In this document: positions 2,076 through 17,911 of the stretch, piece after piece
Position numbering within the stretch: the stretch's first letter is position 1
Layout: every line of letters begins with the position of its first letter
Virus record (IMG/VR): IMGVR_UViG_3300030002_000080
Location: 1 to 31,156 of that record
Direction: 5' to 3' (one strand)
Length of the DNA: 31,156 bases
Source: a virus
Made by a program: the position numbers and the translations under genes
Notes under the pieces: generated by a model
Seen by the model: only the letters and a program-made list of their open reading frames with translations
The model's database searches: none
What the model was told of the DNA's origin: nothing

Positions 2076-2320
2076 CCGAGTACCGCATCACGTTTGGCTC
2101 GCAGTACCGCCACGAGCCTCACCCATCAGCCCAATGGGCGCATCCTGATGGCTGGCTTGCCGTCATCACCGATGACCCGCAGCTCGTGCGTCCACTGACA
2201 CTGTCCGTTGTCGGTCAGGCATTCAGCTTCGACTATGCCCCCGGTGACCAGTACTACCCCACCGAAGAGCACTACCCACTGGGATGCCTCGCCCGCATCC
2301 GCCTCGAGATCCTCGAATAG
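2072..2320 (+). CDS. Hypothetical 82-aa protein
   Basis: The ATG overlaps the previous stop (ATGA) and AAGGAGACC sits just upstream, which decides this start over an earlier in-frame codon. The protein has no Cys pairs or membrane segment and appears beta-rich (SQYRHEPHPSAQWAHPDGW, then RPLTLSVVGQAFSF). No function is recognised. It lies directly before the DNA polymerase gene, with a 7-bp gap. Confidence 0.7.
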   Translation: MTEYRITFGSQYRHEPHPSAQWAHPDGWLAVITDDPQLVRPLTLSVVGQAFSFDYAPGDQYYPTEEHYPLGCLARIRLEILE

Positions 2321-2327
2321 GAGACCC

Positions 2328-5015
2328 ATGCCGTATTGGTCCGCACACACCCACAGCCGGTTCAGCGCCAAGGACGCGCTCCCGGCCGTCGACAAGATCG
2401 TGGCTCGGGCCGCCGAGCTGGGATACCCCGCACTCGCGCTGACCGATCACGGGAACGTGGCCGGCTCGGCGCAGCTGTACAGGGCCTGCCGAAGTGCCGG
2501 CATCGCACCCATGCCCGGCATGGAGGCGTACGTGGCCATCAACCGCCTAGAGGGCAAGCGGCCGGCATCCATGCACATGGGCCTGCTGTCCACCACCGAG
2601 CAGGGCTACCGCAACCTCGTGGGGCTGGCCAGCATGGCCCACCGCAACTTCCGCTACAAGCCGATGCTCGACTTCGGCGACCTCGCCTGGGCGGCCGAGA
2701 ACGGCCTGCTGGACGGCGTGGCAGCCACGTCAGGCTGCTGGTTCGGCCTGGCTCCCGTGATCATGCGGGAGGGCTCCCTGCTGGGCGTGCGCAACGTCCT
2801 GGAAGCCCTGCGGGGCTGGTTCGGGGCAGGCCTGTATGTGGAGGTCCAGAACCACATGATCGTCGACGTCGACCACGACGACGACCTCTACGGGCAGCAG
2901 CTGTACGCCCTAGCCAAGGACCTGAGCCTGCCGATGGTGCTCACGCAGGACTCGCACTACTGCCATATCGAGGACCGGAGCGCCCACGAGGAGATGAAGC
3001 GCCTCATGTCGTGGTCCGACGATCCTGACGATGCTGTGTTCCCCGGTGATGGCTATCACATGGTCGACGAGGAATGGATGCGCGATCACCACGGAGATGC
3101 CATCTTCGAGGCGGGCATGGCCGGGCTTGACGATCTGCTCGTCAAGGCGCGTGTGTCCATTCCAGAGCTGGACCACTTCACGCTCAAGGTCCCCGACACC
3201 ACGATCAGTGGTGACCCGGATGCCGAGATCGCCCAGAAGTGCACCCAGACGCTGGAGGAGTACATCGCCAGTGGAGCCATCAAGAAGGCCCATGCCGAGG
3301 CCTACCGTGAACGACTGCGCGAGGAACTGGAGGTGGTCCACGATGCCGGGTTCGCTGGCTACCTGCTGTTCACGGCCACGGTGACGGACTTCATGAAGCG
3401 GGAGGGGATCTTCTATGGTCCCCGTGGATCCGCCTCCGGGTCGATGATCGTCTGGCTGCTGGGCATCACCGTGCACGATCCGATCGTATGGGGATTGCAG
3501 TTCGATCGCTTCATCAGCCGCGACAAGGCCAAGCCGCCGGACATCGACCTCGACGTGGAGCACCTGCGCCGCGGTGAGGTGCTGGCCTGGCTGGAGGAGA
3601 TGTACACCGTCAGCCACATCGGCTTGTGGATGAAGATGGGCCTGAAGGATGAGGAGGAGGACGAGAACGGCGAGACCACGCAGCGTGGATCACTGGTGGT
3701 CAAGTGGAAGTCGAACGCCCGCAAGCAGGGCAGGGACCCGAACGAACGCTTGACTGATGAGGAGTGGCAGGCCCTGGTGAGCATCGCCAGCCACACGCCC
3801 TACTCCAACTATGGGGTGCACGCCGGCGGCATCCTCATCATCCCCGACGAGCACGCAGGATCGGGGATCCCCATCCAGTACGTGGCCTCGAGCAAGACCT
3901 TCGTCACGGCCTTCGACATGAACGACATCGAGCCCTTCGGCCTGGTCAAGCTCGACGTGCTGGGCCTGAAGACCATGAGCGCGATCAAGAGCATGGTCGA
4001 CGTGGTCGGCATCGACATGGCGGACATCCCGCTGAACGATCGCCGGGCCTATGCACGGATCGGGTCAGGGCAGACCGCTGGCATGTTCCAGCTGGAGGGC
4101 TGGACGTTCACCAAGGGCTGCTCGCGCATGAAGCCGAAGAACATCCACGAGGTCATCGCCGCGCAGGCGCTGTTCCGGCCTGCGGTGATGAAGTCCGGTG
4201 CGACGGACGAGTACCTCGAGCGGCGCAGCAAGGCCAAGCAGGTGCCCATCCGGCATCCGCTGATCATGGAGGCCACACGGGACACGTACGGCACGATCAT
4301 CTACCAGGAGCAGGTCATCAACATCCTGAAGGCGATCGGCATGCCCATCGAGGAGATCGAGCGGGCACGCAAGGCGATCAAGGCCTCCACCGAGGATCAG
4401 ATCGCCAAGGCCCAGAAGGTCATGCGGGACATCACCACCACCATGCGGGCCAAGGGCACGGCGGCCGGGATGGACGAGCACGACCTGATGTTCCTGGACA
4501 CCGCGCTCAACGCCTACGCCCAGTACGGCTTCAACAAGGCCCACGCCACCGCCTACGGGTGGCTGGCCTACATCACGGCGTGGTTCTCCGTGAACCATCC
4601 CGTGGCGTACTGGTCGAGCCTGCTCAATGCCTACGTCGGCGACAAGCAGGAGTCGGGCTACCTGAGCGCAGCACGCAAGGCCGGGGTGAAGATCCGCGGC
4701 CCGCACGTCAACCTGTCCAAGGTCGGGTACGTGGCAGACCTGGAGAAGGGCGCCATCCGCAAGGGGCTGACAGCGATCAAGGGAGTGGGCGAGAAGTCCG
4801 CTACCGAGCTGGTGGCCAACCAGCCGTACACCTCGCTCGTGGACATCGGTGCGCGGGTGAACGCACGACGGGTCAGTGGTGCCAAGGCACTGCGAGACGG
4901 TCACTCTCCAGCAGCCTGCGGAGGGATCGTTGCGGCCCTGAACGAAGCAGGGGCCCTGTACGGGCTCGTGGAGCAAGCCGAACTGTTCGCACCGACCAAG
5001 AAGGAGAACGCATGA
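2328..5015 (+). CDS. dnaE: DNA polymerase III alpha subunit (DnaE-like) with PHP domain
   Basis: 895 aa, ATG after GGAGACCC. This is the replicative C-family DNA polymerase. The N-terminal PHP domain has HTHS at 7-10, TDH at 39-41, an E in PGMEAYV, and a later QDSHY, so its metal site looks largely intact. The palm has GPRGSASGS and the catalytic PDIDLD motif (D405, D407), plus a third acidic residue, D543, in LVKLDVLGLK. A thumb/finger motif FNKAHATAYGWLAY follows. Near the end is a helix-hairpin-helix (IKGVGEKSA). At 895 aa it is shorter than bacterial DnaE (about 1160), apparently lacking the C-terminal OB/tau-binding region. It would replicate the phage genome. Confidence 0.95.
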   Translation: MPYWSAHTHSRFSAKDALPAVDKIVARAAELGYPALALTDHGNVAGSAQLYRACRSAGIAPMPGMEAYVAINRLEGKRPASMHMGLLSTTEQGYRNLVGLASMAHRNFRYKPMLDFGDLAWAAENGLLDGVAATSGCWFGLAPVIMREGSLLGVRNVLEALRGWFGAGLYVEVQNHMIVDVDHDDDLYGQQLYALAKDLSLPMVLTQDSHYCHIEDRSAHEEMKRLMSWSDDPDDAVFPGDGYHMVDEEWMRDHHGDAIFEAGMAGLDDLLVKARVSIPELDHFTLKVPDTTISGDPDAEIAQKCTQTLEEYIASGAIKKAHAEAYRERLREELEVVHDAGFAGYLLFTATVTDFMKREGIFYGPRGSASGSMIVWLLGITVHDPIVWGLQFDRFISRDKAKPPDIDLDVEHLRRGEVLAWLEEMYTVSHIGLWMKMGLKDEEEDENGETTQRGSLVVKWKSNARKQGRDPNERLTDEEWQALVSIASHTPYSNYGVHAGGILIIPDEHAGSGIPIQYVASSKTFVTAFDMNDIEPFGLVKLDVLGLKTMSAIKSMVDVVGIDMADIPLNDRRAYARIGSGQTAGMFQLEGWTFTKGCSRMKPKNIHEVIAAQALFRPAVMKSGATDEYLERRSKAKQVPIRHPLIMEATRDTYGTIIYQEQVINILKAIGMPIEEIERARKAIKASTEDQIAKAQKVMRDITTTMRAKGTAAGMDEHDLMFLDTALNAYAQYGFNKAHATAYGWLAYITAWFSVNHPVAYWSSLLNAYVGDKQESGYLSAARKAGVKIRGPHVNLSKVGYVADLEKGAIRKGLTAIKGVGEKSATELVANQPYTSLVDIGARVNARRVSGAKALRDGHSPAACGGIVAALNEAGALYGLVEQAELFAPTKKENA

Positions 5016-5404
5016 GCACCAAGCACCTACTCATCTGTGACGCCTGTAGCACAGAGGTGTCCGAGCAGGACAAGTTCCTGCGCGGCGGGCTGCCACCGAT
5101 GTGGATGTCTGTCAGTAAGGACCCTGCAGCGTCCCCATGGCATGTGTGCTCGTGGGACTGCCTGCGCTCGTTTGGCGACAGGATGGACCGCGAGAAGAAG
5201 GAACGAGAGGCAGCCCTTGAGCGCAGGGCAGCACAGGACGGCATGCACCAGATCGCCACTGGCAAGTCTCAGTTCGATCGCATCACCCCGCACGCTGTCG
5301 ACCACCCGAAGGACTGGGGCGGCACCGGTGGAGCTACCGAGGTTCACGAGATCCACTACGGGATCGGCAAGCCCGGCGATCCGCTTCCCCCGGACGCCGC
5401 CTGA
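5012..5404 (+). CDS. Hypothetical zinc-binding protein
   Basis: 130 aa, start overlapping the polymerase stop (ATGA) with AAGGAG upstream. Two cysteine pairs, C9/C12 (CDAC) and C46/C50 (CSWDC), are typical of a small treble-clef or zinc-ribbon fold. A charged helix follows (about 56-75, MDREKKEREAALERRA). The rest appears unstructured. The function is unknown; coupling to the polymerase suggests a replication accessory. Confidence 0.75.
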   Translation: MSTKHLLICDACSTEVSEQDKFLRGGLPPMWMSVSKDPAASPWHVCSWDCLRSFGDRMDREKKEREAALERRAAQDGMHQIATGKSQFDRITPHAVDHPKDWGGTGGATEVHEIHYGIGKPGDPLPPDAA

Positions 5405-5580
5405 TGGACCCGGATGTCTGCCTAGCCGAGATCCGCCTCATACTCGACGATCACGCCTCCGGGGAATGGGTGGACCTCGACCGTCTGACCCACCTGATCA
5501 ACTCGATGGACGAATGGATATCCAGCGGAGGCTTCCTGCCCCAGGCATGGCGGGACGCCCACGCGCCACTGACGAACTAG
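5404..5580 (+). CDS. Hypothetical 58-aa protein
   Basis: The ATG overlaps the preceding stop by one base (TGATG), and the reading frame is open to TAG at 5578-5580. The product is acidic and helical (CLAEIRLILDDHASGEW, then LDRLTHLINSMDEW). No motif is recognised. The tight coupling and high GC at third codon positions support a real gene. Confidence 0.65.
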   Translation: MDPDVCLAEIRLILDDHASGEWVDLDRLTHLINSMDEWISSGGFLPQAWRDAHAPLTN

Positions 5581-5603
5581 CCCCACACCAACAAGGAGAC
5601 CAG

Positions 5604-6449
5604 ATGACGATCGATCCACTGGACGCCATCGCAGCAGAGCGAGGGACGCCCAAGCCCATCACCACAGCAATCAACGCATGGAAGAACAATGGCAGCGTGT
5701 ACGACTCTCGCGCTGTCGAGCGGGTGCAGGAGGTCATGCGCAAGGACCTGCTCACCGACCATCGCAGCCAGTCCGCCGGCCGCATCAGGCCGTCCATGAT
5801 CGGCAGCGACTGCCGGCGCCTGCACGCCCTGTCCTTCGCCGGGTTCGAGAAGGCCGCATTCAGTGAGAAGTCCCTCGGCTTCATGGACTCCGGCACGTGG
5901 GCGCACTACCAGTGGCAGGCCATGCTGCTGAGCGCCTGGTACCAGGGCTACGGCGGCATCACCGACATCGAGGTGCCCGTCACCTACCGGCCGTGGAAGC
6001 TCGTCGGATCCATGGACGGCGTGCAGCCGGACCTGAGCATCTTCGAACTGAAGACGTCCGGCTACTTCAAGTACTACGGCGGAAAGTACTCCATCGGCAT
6101 GGCCAACGCCCCGGAGCCGACACTGGACCACCTCCAGCAGATCAATGGCTACATGAAGGCCAAGGGCGTGCAATGGGCGTCCATCGTCTACTTGTCCCGG
6201 GATAACAACAACGACTTCATCGAGTTCCGGGTGCAGTTCGACCAGGCTGTGTTCGATGCCAAGGACATGGCCATCCGATCCACCCTGAAGTCCGTCAGGG
6301 ACGGCGAGCTGCCACCCATGCTCGAAGGCTGCCGGCGTGTCTGGGAGGGCGACACCCTCGACGGGGTCACCTCCGCCCAGAAGGCCACATGGGAGGGCGT
6401 GTTCGACCGCTGCGACTTCCACCACATCTGCCCGAAAGCGATCCTGTGA
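5604..6449 (+). CDS. Cas4/RecB-like PD-(D/E)XK exonuclease
   Basis: 281 aa, ATG after AAGGAGACC. Motifs of the RecB/Cas4 nuclease fold are visible: H101 in GTWAHYQ, D138 in GSMDG, E148-x-K150 in FELKTSG, and the QxxxY pair Q179/Y183. Four cysteines, C70 (SDCRR), C243 (GCRR), C270 and C276 (CDFHHIC), fit an iron-sulfur cluster as in Cas4-like exonucleases. The likely role is DNA end processing in phage recombination or replication. There are no CRISPR genes nearby, so a Cas role is not implied. The stop overlaps the next GTG. Confidence 0.88.
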   Translation: MTIDPLDAIAAERGTPKPITTAINAWKNNGSVYDSRAVERVQEVMRKDLLTDHRSQSAGRIRPSMIGSDCRRLHALSFAGFEKAAFSEKSLGFMDSGTWAHYQWQAMLLSAWYQGYGGITDIEVPVTYRPWKLVGSMDGVQPDLSIFELKTSGYFKYYGGKYSIGMANAPEPTLDHLQQINGYMKAKGVQWASIVYLSRDNNNDFIEFRVQFDQAVFDAKDMAIRSTLKSVRDGELPPMLEGCRRVWEGDTLDGVTSAQKATWEGVFDRCDFHHICPKAIL

Positions 6450-14224: not shown

Positions 14225-14673
14225 GCGAGTTCATCATCCTCGGGCAGTGCATCCACTGCCTGGTGGTGCACGGGCCGTTCAGCACGGACAGGCAGCGCAA
14301 CCAGTTCTATGACGTCGCCCACCCGCCAAAGTGCGTCGGGGAGAAGCAGGTCCCCAAGCATCTTCGGGGGAAGATCGCCAGGTCGGCCAGCGCGTCACCG
14401 GCCGCCACGGTAATCGAGGTGAGCGGGCATAGGACTGTCACCCCGGCCAGCACCGAGCGCACCTATGCCAAGGGCGACTCCAGTCCGGCCTTCCCGTCGA
14501 AGTGGGCAGGCAGCTGCTACCACTGCGGCTTCAAGTACTACGAGGGCGACTTCATCAAGATGGTCACCGTCAAGGACGGCGAGAAGGGCAAGCCTGTTCA
14601 CGAGGACTGCGCTGACGAGCTCGTGGCCTCCCTGTGGGGCAAGCAGATCCAGTCCGATGAGCCCCCATTCTGA
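14221..14673 (+). CDS. Two-zinc-site protein
   Basis: 150 aa, ATG overlapping the previous stop. An N-terminal CIHC (C10/C13) forms part of one possible site. The C-terminal domain has C99/C102 (CYHC) with H127/C130 (HEDC), the layout of a treble-clef finger. The linker (about 55-90) is low complexity. It may bind nucleic acid. Confidence 0.68.
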   Translation: MSEFIILGQCIHCLVVHGPFSTDRQRNQFYDVAHPPKCVGEKQVPKHLRGKIARSASASPAATVIEVSGHRTVTPASTERTYAKGDSSPAFPSKWAGSCYHCGFKYYEGDFIKMVTVKDGEKGKPVHEDCADELVASLWGKQIQSDEPPF

Positions 14674-14939
14674 TGAGGTTCCGCAGCAAGAAGCAGCAGA
14701 AGATCTACGACGAGGACCGGCGAAGGATAGTCCGCGACATGCTGGCGACCTACCCGATCTGCGTACGCTGCTGGCGGGCCCCGTCAGTGGACGTGCACGA
14801 GCGCAAGAGCCGAGCACGTGGCGGTTCCATCACCGACGTGAGCAATCTGGTGTGCCTGTGCCGGGTCTGCCACGACGTCATCACCACCAACCCAGCCATG
14901 GCACAAGCCGAGGGCTGGTCCATCCACAGTTGGGAGTAA
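14673..14939 (+). CDS. HNH endonuclease
   Basis: 88 aa, ATG sharing a base with the preceding TGA. HNH motifs are visible: C30/C33 (CVRC), H42 in VDVHERKSRARGG, N58 in VSNLV, and C63/C66-H67 (CLCRVCH). The small size and arrangement fit a free-standing phage HNH nuclease of the type that also assists terminase or nicks DNA. No large terminase is adjacent. It lies 3 bp before the Tad2-like gene. Confidence 0.82.
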   Translation: MRFRSKKQQKIYDEDRRRIVRDMLATYPICVRCWRAPSVDVHERKSRARGGSITDVSNLVCLCRVCHDVITTNPAMAQAEGWSIHSWE

Positions 14940-14942
14940 GTA

Positions 14943-15200
14943 ATGAACGAGGAACGAACGCAGCGCCACTACACATTCTCTGAGGCGCTGATCCTGCTCA
15001 AGCAGGGGAAGAGGTTGACCCGCACAGGTTGGAACGGAGCAGGTCAGTGGATCTCACTCCAGACACCCGACAACAACTCCAAGATGTCCCTGCCCTACAT
15101 CTACATGCAGACCGCCCAAGGCGACCTCGTCCCCTGGCTCGCTAGTCAGACGGACCTGCTGGCCGAGGACTGGGACTTCGCCACTATGGAGACCTCATGA
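14943..15200 (+). CDS. tad2: Tad2-family (DUF2829) anti-defence sponge
   Basis: 85 aa, ATG after GGGAG. The domain fills the protein: TFSEALILLKQGK (11-23), the TGWNG turn (28-32) and the signature VPWLASQTDLLAEDW (63-77). This is the hallmark of DUF2829. Members of this family (Tad2) are known to form oligomers that bind and sequester gcADPR, the Thoeris signal. Some also bind CBASS cyclic nucleotides. The length is typical. It is coupled to an Acb2/Tad1-like gene by a 4-bp overlap. The ligand for this copy is not known from sequence. Confidence 0.9.
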   Translation: MNEERTQRHYTFSEALILLKQGKRLTRTGWNGAGQWISLQTPDNNSKMSLPYIYMQTAQGDLVPWLASQTDLLAEDWDFATMETS

Positions 15201-15409
15201 CATTCACGCCTGACCTGAATCACCGGTTCGTGTACCACGCACCGGACGAAGAGAAGAAGCTCCTGCACGAGGCAACTCGACGGGAGTGCCTGACACTGGC
15301 GCACTTCTTTGACGGATCCCTGCCCGACGGCCGGGAGAAGGCCCTGGCGATCACCAAGCTGGAAGAGGCGATGTTCTGGGCCAATGCCGCGATCGCGAGG
15401 CACCGATGA
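15197..15409 (+). CDS. acb2: Acb2/Tad1 hairpin-domain protein (anti-CBASS/anti-Thoeris sponge)
   Basis: 70 aa, ATG overlapping the Tad2-like stop (ATGA). The N-terminal HRFVYHAP (9-16) and the C-terminal helix PDGREKALAITKLEE followed by AMFWANAAIAR (43-68) are the signature of the Acb2/Tad1 hairpin domain. Acb2 forms hexamers that sequester CBASS cyclic di- and trinucleotides. Tad1 proteins sharing this domain bind gcADPR. At 70 aa it has the short Acb2 form without the extra Tad1 domain. The usual DSRE is DGRE here. Which messenger is bound must be tested. Confidence 0.88.
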   Translation: MTFTPDLNHRFVYHAPDEEKKLLHEATRRECLTLAHFFDGSLPDGREKALAITKLEEAMFWANAAIARHR

Positions 15410-15588
15410 CGCCGGCGGAGATGTCGAAGTTGCTGTTCTGCGCCCGTGAGGAGATGTCCATGTGGGCTGACGTCGTGGAGATCCGCACTGGCGAGAGGCC
15501 CGAGCACACACTCGGCCTGATCAGCCAGATCGACGCCTACCGGGCCGAGCAGGGTTGGTCGCCGGACGGCTTCGGGGGCGAGTCATGA
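15406..15588 (+). CDS. Hypothetical 60-aa protein coupled to the sponge genes
   Basis: ATG overlapping the acb2-like stop (ATGA). A helical peptide with two helices (about 3-25, EMSKLLFCAREEMSMWADVV, and 34-48). No known family is recognised. Third gene of a coupled set with two second-messenger sponges, so a counter-defence role is plausible by context. Confidence 0.68.
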   Translation: MTPAEMSKLLFCAREEMSMWADVVEIRTGERPEHTLGLISQIDAYRAEQGWSPDGFGGES

Positions 15589-16079
15589 TCCGCGAAGCCT
15601 GCGCGTGCGGCGCCACGTTCCTGGCCGACTTCTCCGAGTTCAAGGGAGCGACATCCACCAGGGAGTGCGATGCGGCCGAGGCATGGCGCAAGGACCACAA
15701 GCACAGGGCCACGGCTCAGGAGGCGCTGGCTGCCCTGCCGGCCGACTGGAAGCCGCTAAGCCAGCGTGAGGGCTCTGGGTCGGTCAGCAGCATCCACGAC
15801 CCGGACATGTACGCCCTCAACAAGGACTACATCCTCAACGGCGATCTCGATCCTGTGTGGATCGGGGCCACTGGCCAGCCGGAGTACTTCGCCACATGGG
15901 CCAGGTACCAGGGCTCGCTCAACCGGGAGCAGGACCTTCCGCAGCACTCGCACTACGCCGCGGGCGTGGACTACCTCATCAACCAGGAGGGCAAGCCTGT
16001 GTGGATCAGCAAGGACTGGGAGGAGCCGGACGACTTCAAGGCGTGGGCCGGCATGTACGTCGGGGTGAACCGCATATGA
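15585..16079 (+). CDS. Hypothetical protein with internal duplication
   Basis: 164 aa, ATG overlapping the previous stop. The N-terminus has C6/C8, C28 and His residues, possibly a zinc site. Two copies of a roughly 36-residue unit follow, at about 76-110 and 124-160. They share Y-A-x-x-x-D-Y, a short acidic turn, the P-V-W-I strand, and A-x-x-x-Y-x-G near the end. The unit could be a small binding module. The function is unknown, and the gene is translationally coupled to the anti-defence genes. Confidence 0.7.
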   Translation: MIREACACGATFLADFSEFKGATSTRECDAAEAWRKDHKHRATAQEALAALPADWKPLSQREGSGSVSSIHDPDMYALNKDYILNGDLDPVWIGATGQPEYFATWARYQGSLNREQDLPQHSHYAAGVDYLINQEGKPVWISKDWEEPDDFKAWAGMYVGVNRI

Positions 16080-16906: not shown

Positions 16907-17911
16907 ATGCCCGCTGAATACGAGGAGGGCTGGGTCGCGCACACCGCTGCGTGGCACCAGCTCGCCGACATCAAGCAAGATCGGCCCCGCACATGGGAGG
17001 CCGCCAAGGAGGGCTACCTGAACTGGGAGCCTAAGGCCGTCCCGATCTACGCCGCGGTACCAGCCGTCGACCCGGCGACCATCGCACGCGGGGTGGAGAA
17101 CGAGTACTTCGAGATCCCCGGCTGGCACCAGGTCGTCCGCGACGACAACAAGGAGATCCTGACCATCCAGCCGGACTCCCTGGCCATCATCGGCAACAAC
17201 GAGTTCGGCAACCTCGTCGAGTACATCATGGGCGTCGACATCCCCGGCATGCCGCCGCTGTCCTTCGACACCCTCTCGGTGCTCAAGGGCGGCCGCATCG
17301 TGGCTGTCTCGCTCAAGCTGGAGACCCCCTTCCAGATCCCCGGCGATGACTCCCTGACGTACGGCTACATGCACTTCTGGACCCGCCACGACGGCCTGGG
17401 CGGCATGAAGTGCGGGCCGGGGATGTTCCGCATCGTCTGCTCGAACACCCAGTCAATGGCAGAGGCGTTCATGGACGCCAAGCACGCCGCCATGACCATC
17501 CGGCACACCCGCAACTGGGCGACCCGGGTGGAGGAGGCCCGCCGCTCGATGGTGGCCTCCCTGGGCCAGATGCAGGCGTGGGAGGTCATGGCCAAGGACA
17601 TGGCGAAGACCCCGGTCCGGGAGGCCGACCTCGAGTGGTTCCTGGACAAGTGGCTGCCGTTCTCCTCGGACATGACGGACCGCCAGAAGGACACCATCGG
17701 AAGCAAGCGCAGGGCCTTCCTGACGGCCTACGACAGCGCCACCTGTGAATCCATCCGCGGAACCGTCTACGGGCTCTCACAGGCCGCCGTGGAGGTCTGC
17801 GATCACGTGTTCCCGGCACAGTCGCTGGAGTCACGGGTGACCCGCACGATCGTCTCGGGGAACACCTACAAGGCCAAGGCTCTCGAGCTTGCCCGGAAGA
17901 TGTCGTCATGA
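16907..17911 (+). CDS. DUF932 phage/plasmid-like protein
   Basis: 334 aa, ATG after AAGGAG. The sequence has the DUF932 layout: an N-terminal region with KAVPIYAAV, a core with IIGNNEFGNLVEYI and GGRIVAVSLKL, the RIVCSNTQSMA segment (about 176-186), and a helical C-terminus. DUF932 proteins are common in phages and plasmids, often near replication genes, but their function is not established. The length is usual for the family. Its stop overlaps the next start. Confidence 0.85.
   Translation: MPAEYEEGWVAHTAAWHQLADIKQDRPRTWEAAKEGYLNWEPKAVPIYAAVPAVDPATIARGVENEYFEIPGWHQVVRDDNKEILTIQPDSLAIIGNNEFGNLVEYIMGVDIPGMPPLSFDTLSVLKGGRIVAVSLKLETPFQIPGDDSLTYGYMHFWTRHDGLGGMKCGPGMFRIVCSNTQSMAEAFMDAKHAAMTIRHTRNWATRVEEARRSMVASLGQMQAWEVMAKDMAKTPVREADLEWFLDKWLPFSSDMTDRQKDTIGSKRRAFLTAYDSATCESIRGTVYGLSQAAVEVCDHVFPAQSLESRVTRTIVSGNTYKAKALELARKMSS

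Follow-up and report, generated by a model that had tools for sequence, protein, structure and literature searches.

A compact Tad2-like gene adjoining an Acb2-type gene as a candidate two-sponge cassette in phages

What might a phage gain from carrying two small genes of signal-sequestering families side by side? Tad1, Tad2 and Acb2 have so far mostly been studied as single proteins, and the locus described here raises the question of a joint role. It lies in a complete 31-kb IMG/VR record (IMGVR_UViG_3300030002_000080), all 31,156 nt of which form the stretch that we analysed and call the window. A preliminary description of this DNA had proposed a coupled pair of sponges encoded by adjoining frames of 85 and 70 aa. 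Both frames are present, and their translations contain the signatures claimed for them, VPWLASQTDLLAEDW in the Tad2-like product and EEAMFWANAAIAR in the Acb2-type product. The features of the locus are as follows.

2208-5015, before the pair: DnaE-like polymerase
5037-6449, before the pair: Cas4-type exonuclease
14932-14936, plus strand: GGGAG, putative Shine-Dalgarno-like motif, 6 nt 5' of the Tad2 start
14943-15200, plus strand: compact Tad2-like gene (PF11195), 85 aa, with profile, PDB-sequence and fold matches
15188-15191, plus strand: GGAG, putative Shine-Dalgarno-like motif, 5 nt 5' of the Acb2 start, within the Tad2 gene
15197-15409, plus strand: Acb2-type gene (PF24729 hairpin) of an actinophage subfamily, 70 aa
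15197-15200, plus strand: ATGA stop/start overlap of 4 nt common to the two genes, read directly

Each gene of the pair thus has a plausible ribosome-binding site in front of it. The overlap had been taken to make the two genes one translational unit. It is real, but ATGA overlaps continue between the 70-aa gene and the frame at 15406-15588, and again between that frame and the one at 15585-16079. Since such overlaps are the local norm, the argument for coupling is weak. The identical pair occurs on a second contig (IMGVR_UViG_3300029990_000025), and a nucleotide search of a phage collection with 10 kb of the window returned no relative. The DnaE-like polymerase has Gordonia phage enzymes as its nearest matches, at only 34%, and a tail-like gene also precedes the pair. 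Two further neighbours were noted: a small HNH endonuclease gene (14673-14939) that ends 3 nt ahead of the Tad2 gene and could be either a homing-type element or a neighbour of the cassette, and, slightly downstream of the pair, a gene for a DUF932 protein (PF06067, 8.4e-31; 16907-17911).

The two proteins belong to the families first proposed for them. The 85-aa product matches the Tad2-like model of Pfam-A (PF11195) over residues 11-78 (E=1.3e-25, 90.2 bits for a cut-off of 25), and the 70-aa product matches PF24729 (Acb2_Tad1_hairpin) over residues 13-68 (E=8.9e-22, 77.5 bits for a cut-off of 27). Both matches lie far over the gathering scores, in line with the DUF2829/Tad2 and Acb2/Tad1 hairpin assignments. 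In PHROGs the pair matches phrog_1048/872 and phrog_1454, annotated there as of function unknown, and no homology was found between the window's Tad2-like and Acb2-type families. The Tad2-like sequence finds SptTad2, SPO1 Tad2, HgmTad2/AcrIIA7 and ModTad2 in the PDB. Its AlphaFold2 model (pLDDT 90.7) gives 24 PDB matches with E <= 0.001 in Foldseek, every one a Tad2/AcrIIA7 chain and SPO1 Tad2 among the best, so that the predicted fold agrees with the family.

The fold of the 70-aa protein calls for a finer distinction. Its sequence matches 'Acb2 homolog 43' (9ptq) in the PDB, and its profile matches are Tad1 hairpins and T4 Vs.4. The AlphaFold2 model (pLDDT 92.4) is laid out as one short N-terminal helix (residues 5-11) followed by two long antiparallel helices (18-41 and 46-68). 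In the structural ranking T4 Vs.4 comes first (Z 7.3, rmsd 4.0, 64 aligned residues), with unrelated helical hairpins close behind; the Acb2 structures 8h2x and 8h2j reach Z 6.4-6.5, a range near which unrelated examples of this common fold also score. The ranking by itself is not decisive. Acb2 takes cyclic di- and trinucleotides, whereas Tad1 does both jobs, binding gcADPR in a pocket formed by an N-terminal beta domain with the helices, and cyclic nucleotides as well (PMC12043709). Because the modelled protein is a hairpin only, without the N-terminal beta domain, we class it as Acb2-type and not as Tad1. Hence, of the original label "Acb2/Tad1-like", the first half stands and the second does not.

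The Tad2-like protein carries the motifs GWNG (29-32), SQTD (68-71) and LAEDW (73-77), and its R27, W30, D71 and D76 are invariant across the alignment. Characterised Tad2 proteins are tetramers that take up gcADPR or His-ADPR and thereby counter Thoeris. According to a review (PMC12043709), Tad2 has one pocket for gcADPR and binds cyclic dinucleotides by means of a beta2-beta5 insertion. Both the alignment and the loop length indicate that this insertion is absent from the window's protein: 34 residues separate WNG from the segment before SxxD, against medians of 63 in HgmTad2-like and 49 in ModTad2-like proteins. The SQTD motif is common to the gcADPR/cADPR binders SPO1 and Hgm and to the cGG-bound Spt protein, whereas the His-ADPR binder ModTad2 has SVSD. 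The window's protein has SQTD and is therefore expected to bind a ligand of the gcADPR/cADPR class; judged by motif from few structures, this class is most likely, rather than His-ADPR.

The case for the pair lies in recurrence more than in the overlap; a survey of related actinophages had been suggested. We took relatives of each gene from IMG/VR and searched them for the other gene. Searches with two tandem DNA patterns gave 14 stretches with Tad2 before Acb2 and 3 with Acb2 before Tad2, and the partners examined with Pfam were all over the cut-off. Final counts used the curated PF24729 model over entire records, with the sibling contig left out. A PF24729 gene is found in 22 of 79 records with a compact Tad2, and in 17 of the 79 (17 of the 22 carriers) it is the immediate same-strand neighbour of Tad2. 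Random placement would give about 2 such adjacencies (P ~4e-16, with gene density roughly modelled as one per 700 bp). Of 65 compact-Tad2 records left after dereplication, 13 show adjacency, and about 80% of compact-Tad2 loci are unpaired. Mycobacterium phage MalagasyRose has the pair as gp4-gp5 with a 1-nt overlap, Tenacibaculum phage Gundel_1 has it in reverse order, and a Mycolicibacterium sphagni prophage (L179) is the sole case from our pair-pattern search of bacterial contigs. The pair thus recurs, and in both gene orders. Curiosium has a closely related Tad2, and Pfam recognises neither of the two ORFs flanking it as Acb2. The partners represent about five Acb2 subfamilies, which we name here by sequence (L numbers are our loci):

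Actinophage RFxYH group: window, L004, L006, L047, MalagasyRose
RHQY group: L096, L130, L136, L165, L174, L177
RESF/LTFNPS group: L100, L116-L119, L129, L137, L141, L149, L150, L161, L163, L178
Canonical GYKPQ group, T4-like: L107, L139, L153
Group of Gundel_1: Gundel_1

Two of these loci, L136 and L178, have phage backbone genes in common, yet they carry the pair in opposite orders and with different Acb2 types. Parsimony on the Tad2 tree gives 19 changes of paired state, of which at least 4 are forced by strong branches, in a tree poorly resolved for so short a protein. The window's Tad2 clusters there with unpaired relatives (98/88), apart from those of L004, L006 and MalagasyRose. Around the pair we found no third gene common to unrelated pairs. 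The neighbours that are shared are phage backbone genes, such as a large downstream gene (called a terminase in MalagasyRose), and most other matches in the neighbour search are antisense shadows of the Tad2 and Acb2 genes themselves. In L105, L146 and L147, Acb2-family genes lie 0.7-2 kb from Tad2 and not beside it, possibly as intermediate arrangements.

Complementarity between the two proteins predicts an inverse relation between the Tad2 insertion and the presence of Acb2, and such a relation was observed. Insertion-bearing, HgmTad2-like records have Acb2 in 2 of 80, none immediately adjacent. The difference in carriage (22/79 compact versus 2/80 long-insert) gives Fisher P values of 4e-6 raw and 3e-4 dereplicated, with host phyla pooled; for adjacency the dereplicated counts, likewise pooled over phyla, are 13/65 versus 0/60 (P = 1.4e-4). 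Acb2 is rarer with long-insert Tad2 even though these contigs are longer (median 36 kb, against 20 kb for compact). Pooling must nevertheless be kept in mind, for phages with long-insert Tad2 may have hosts in other phyla, in which the Acb2 load is different. The long-loop ModTad2-like set shows 0 of 18 adjacent (dereplicated, Gundel_1 aside), which is too few to conclude from.

We consider it fairly probable that the pair is a two-gene counter-defence cassette with complementary ligands. The compact Tad2 would sequester an ADP-ribose-type signal produced by the TIR proteins of Thoeris, of the gcADPR/cADPR class rather than His-ADPR, and the adjacent hairpin protein would sequester the cyclic di- or trinucleotides used by CBASS and related systems. 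In combination they would achieve the signal coverage that a long-insert Tad2 or Tad1 achieves as a single protein. Recurrence in unrelated phages, the occurrence of both orders and the tie to insertion-free Tad2s lend this joint role indirect support. What the data show directly is family membership and fold, the recurrence of the pair, the missing insertion and its inverse relation to Acb2; the ligands, the anti-defence activity and coverage as the reason for pairing are inferred. One of the target defences can be traced among candidate hosts: in a sample of 399 Mycobacteriales genomes, 35 have PF18144, the CBASS CD-NTase domain, over cut-off. The STALD model PF18185, which stands in for the SLOG domain of ThsA, is over cut-off in 0 of the 399, a count that is uninformative on Thoeris there since it comes without a positive control. 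PF24729 itself occurs in 7 of the 399, too rarely for statistics.

Might both proteins be real sponges with no functional link, brought together only because small anti-defence genes cluster in permissive loci? Such clustering would suit the majority of compact Tad2s that have no Acb2 neighbour and the ATGA overlaps usual in this region of the window; moreover, in several actinophage-like loci the pair lies just upstream of the terminase genes, at an accessory-gene site. Yet of the 22 records in which both genes occur, 17 have them directly next to each other and not merely nearby, and a general anti-defence locus predicts no shortage of Acb2 with long-insert Tad2. On balance we find this explanation unlikely, though it deserves to be taken seriously.

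A second alternative is that the window's Acb2 has lost or changed its binding of cyclic nucleotides and serves another role, e.g. towards another signal. It turns on the contact residues, which we compared by aligning the protein to T4 Vs.4, with contacts taken from PMC10097602. The counterparts of Vs.4 H11, S74, R79 and F82 are P16, M59, A64 and A67, i.e. these contacts are replaced. The F82A change costs Vs.4 over 25-fold in cGAMP binding (PMC10097602), and because counterparts of R79 and F82 are absent, the ligand of the window's protein may differ. On the other side, Y8 and K23 of Vs.4 correspond to Y13 and R28, kept or conservatively exchanged, T53 matches Vs.4, and the hexamer-interface alanines A66, A73 and A77 are all kept (A51, A58 and A62). 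Fold and oligomer interface look kept. Within the subfamily, with its signature RFxYH ... REKALAxTKLEEAMFWANAAIAR, the FWANAAIAR tail is strongly conserved, which implies that the site is under constraint. The ligand may be a shifted one; that cyclic-nucleotide binding was lost or changed and another role taken on strikes us as rather improbable. Canonical-type partners retain GYKPQ at the start as well as the R..F tail, so the pairing is not limited to this odd subfamily. It is very improbable, finally, that the Tad2-like protein acts as an AcrIIA7-type anti-CRISPR with a neighbour unrelated to that role: AcrIIA7 does share its domain and is among the PDB relatives (8kbi, 9kzr), but the AcrIIA7/HgmTad2 chain has been solved with 1',2'-cADPR and cGG (titles of 8kbj and 8kbk), and the partner gene repeatedly belongs to a nucleotide-sponge family.

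The idea of complementary ligands can be pushed further. One might speculate that the pair is a matched two-part sponge, in which Acb2 was recruited beside Tad2 repeatedly and in both orders, compensating for an insertion that is absent or was lost, possibly with co-regulation or co-assembly, and in which the actinophage Acb2 may hold an undescribed signal. This stronger form we regard as doubtful.

The two domains also occur in other architectures. A tblastn piece of Cronobacter phage JK004 was considered as a Tad2-Acb2 fusion and rejected, for its Tad2 is fused to a crAss001_48 domain. The JK004 protein, gp50 (L186:2468-2968), has a Tad2-like domain at residues 11-93 and a crAss001_48-related domain (PF21825) at 102-162, and the latter could be another sponge or a partner domain. 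Two Tad2-like genes lie in tandem at L083:5034-5527, the second with SWHI instead of GWNG and hence perhaps a changed pocket. In MalagasyRose, gp5 (L182:922-1509) has 195 aa and encloses the hairpin between additional N-terminal sequence and a C-terminal tail that is acidic and rich in Pro. In the 172-289-position profiles phrog_1048, phrog_872 and phrog_717 it is the C-terminal part that corresponds to the Tad2 or Acb2 domain, so fusions to N-terminal domains seem common.

If the proposal is true, the recurrent Tad2-Acb2 cassette would show phages assembling matched sponges against several signalling defences. It offers a testable rule, that insertion-free Tad2s are those that travel with Acb2, and it makes gene neighbourhood a route to divergent sponges. 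The gp4-gp5 pair of MalagasyRose, whose lab host is M. smegmatis mc2 155, is open to experiment. Both families are known already, as are actinophage Acb2 as a CBASS antagonist and phages with two signal-removing proteins. Their combination in a two-sponge Tad2-Acb2 cassette appears to be new: neither the adjacency nor its tie to the missing insertion was found described in the literature searched, outside which several primary papers lie.

How does the locus compare with known systems? SPO1 Tad2, SptTad2 and HgmTad2 (AcrIIA7) resemble the window's Tad2 in predicted fold (8smf, E 6.8e-8; TM 0.75-0.80), in GWNG and in SQTD/DW, but HgmTad2-like proteins have the long insertion whereas the window's is compact. 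ModTad2 of Myroides odoratus has the same family and fold, but SVSD and a longer loop. Tad1 shares with the 70-aa protein the C-terminal helical hairpin and its Pfam domain; its N-terminal beta domain has no counterpart here. T4 Vs.4 and the Pseudomonas-phage Acb2 (anti-CBASS 2) are alike in helix layout, Y13, R28, T53 and the interface alanines, but the window's protein belongs to an actinophage subfamily, lacks R79/F82-type contacts and is paired with Tad2. A Cluster E mycobacteriophage encodes a 'cyclic oligonucleotide sequestering protein', an actinophage Acb2 like the window's that is annotated as a CBASS antagonist and reported with no Tad2 partner (PMC11953737). The closest precedents for the combination are T4 (acb1 and acb2) and SPO1 (acb4 and tad2), each a single phage with two signal-removing proteins (PMC11722364). 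SPO1 is likened here by gene content alone; in the window, two sponge genes of different families adjoin.
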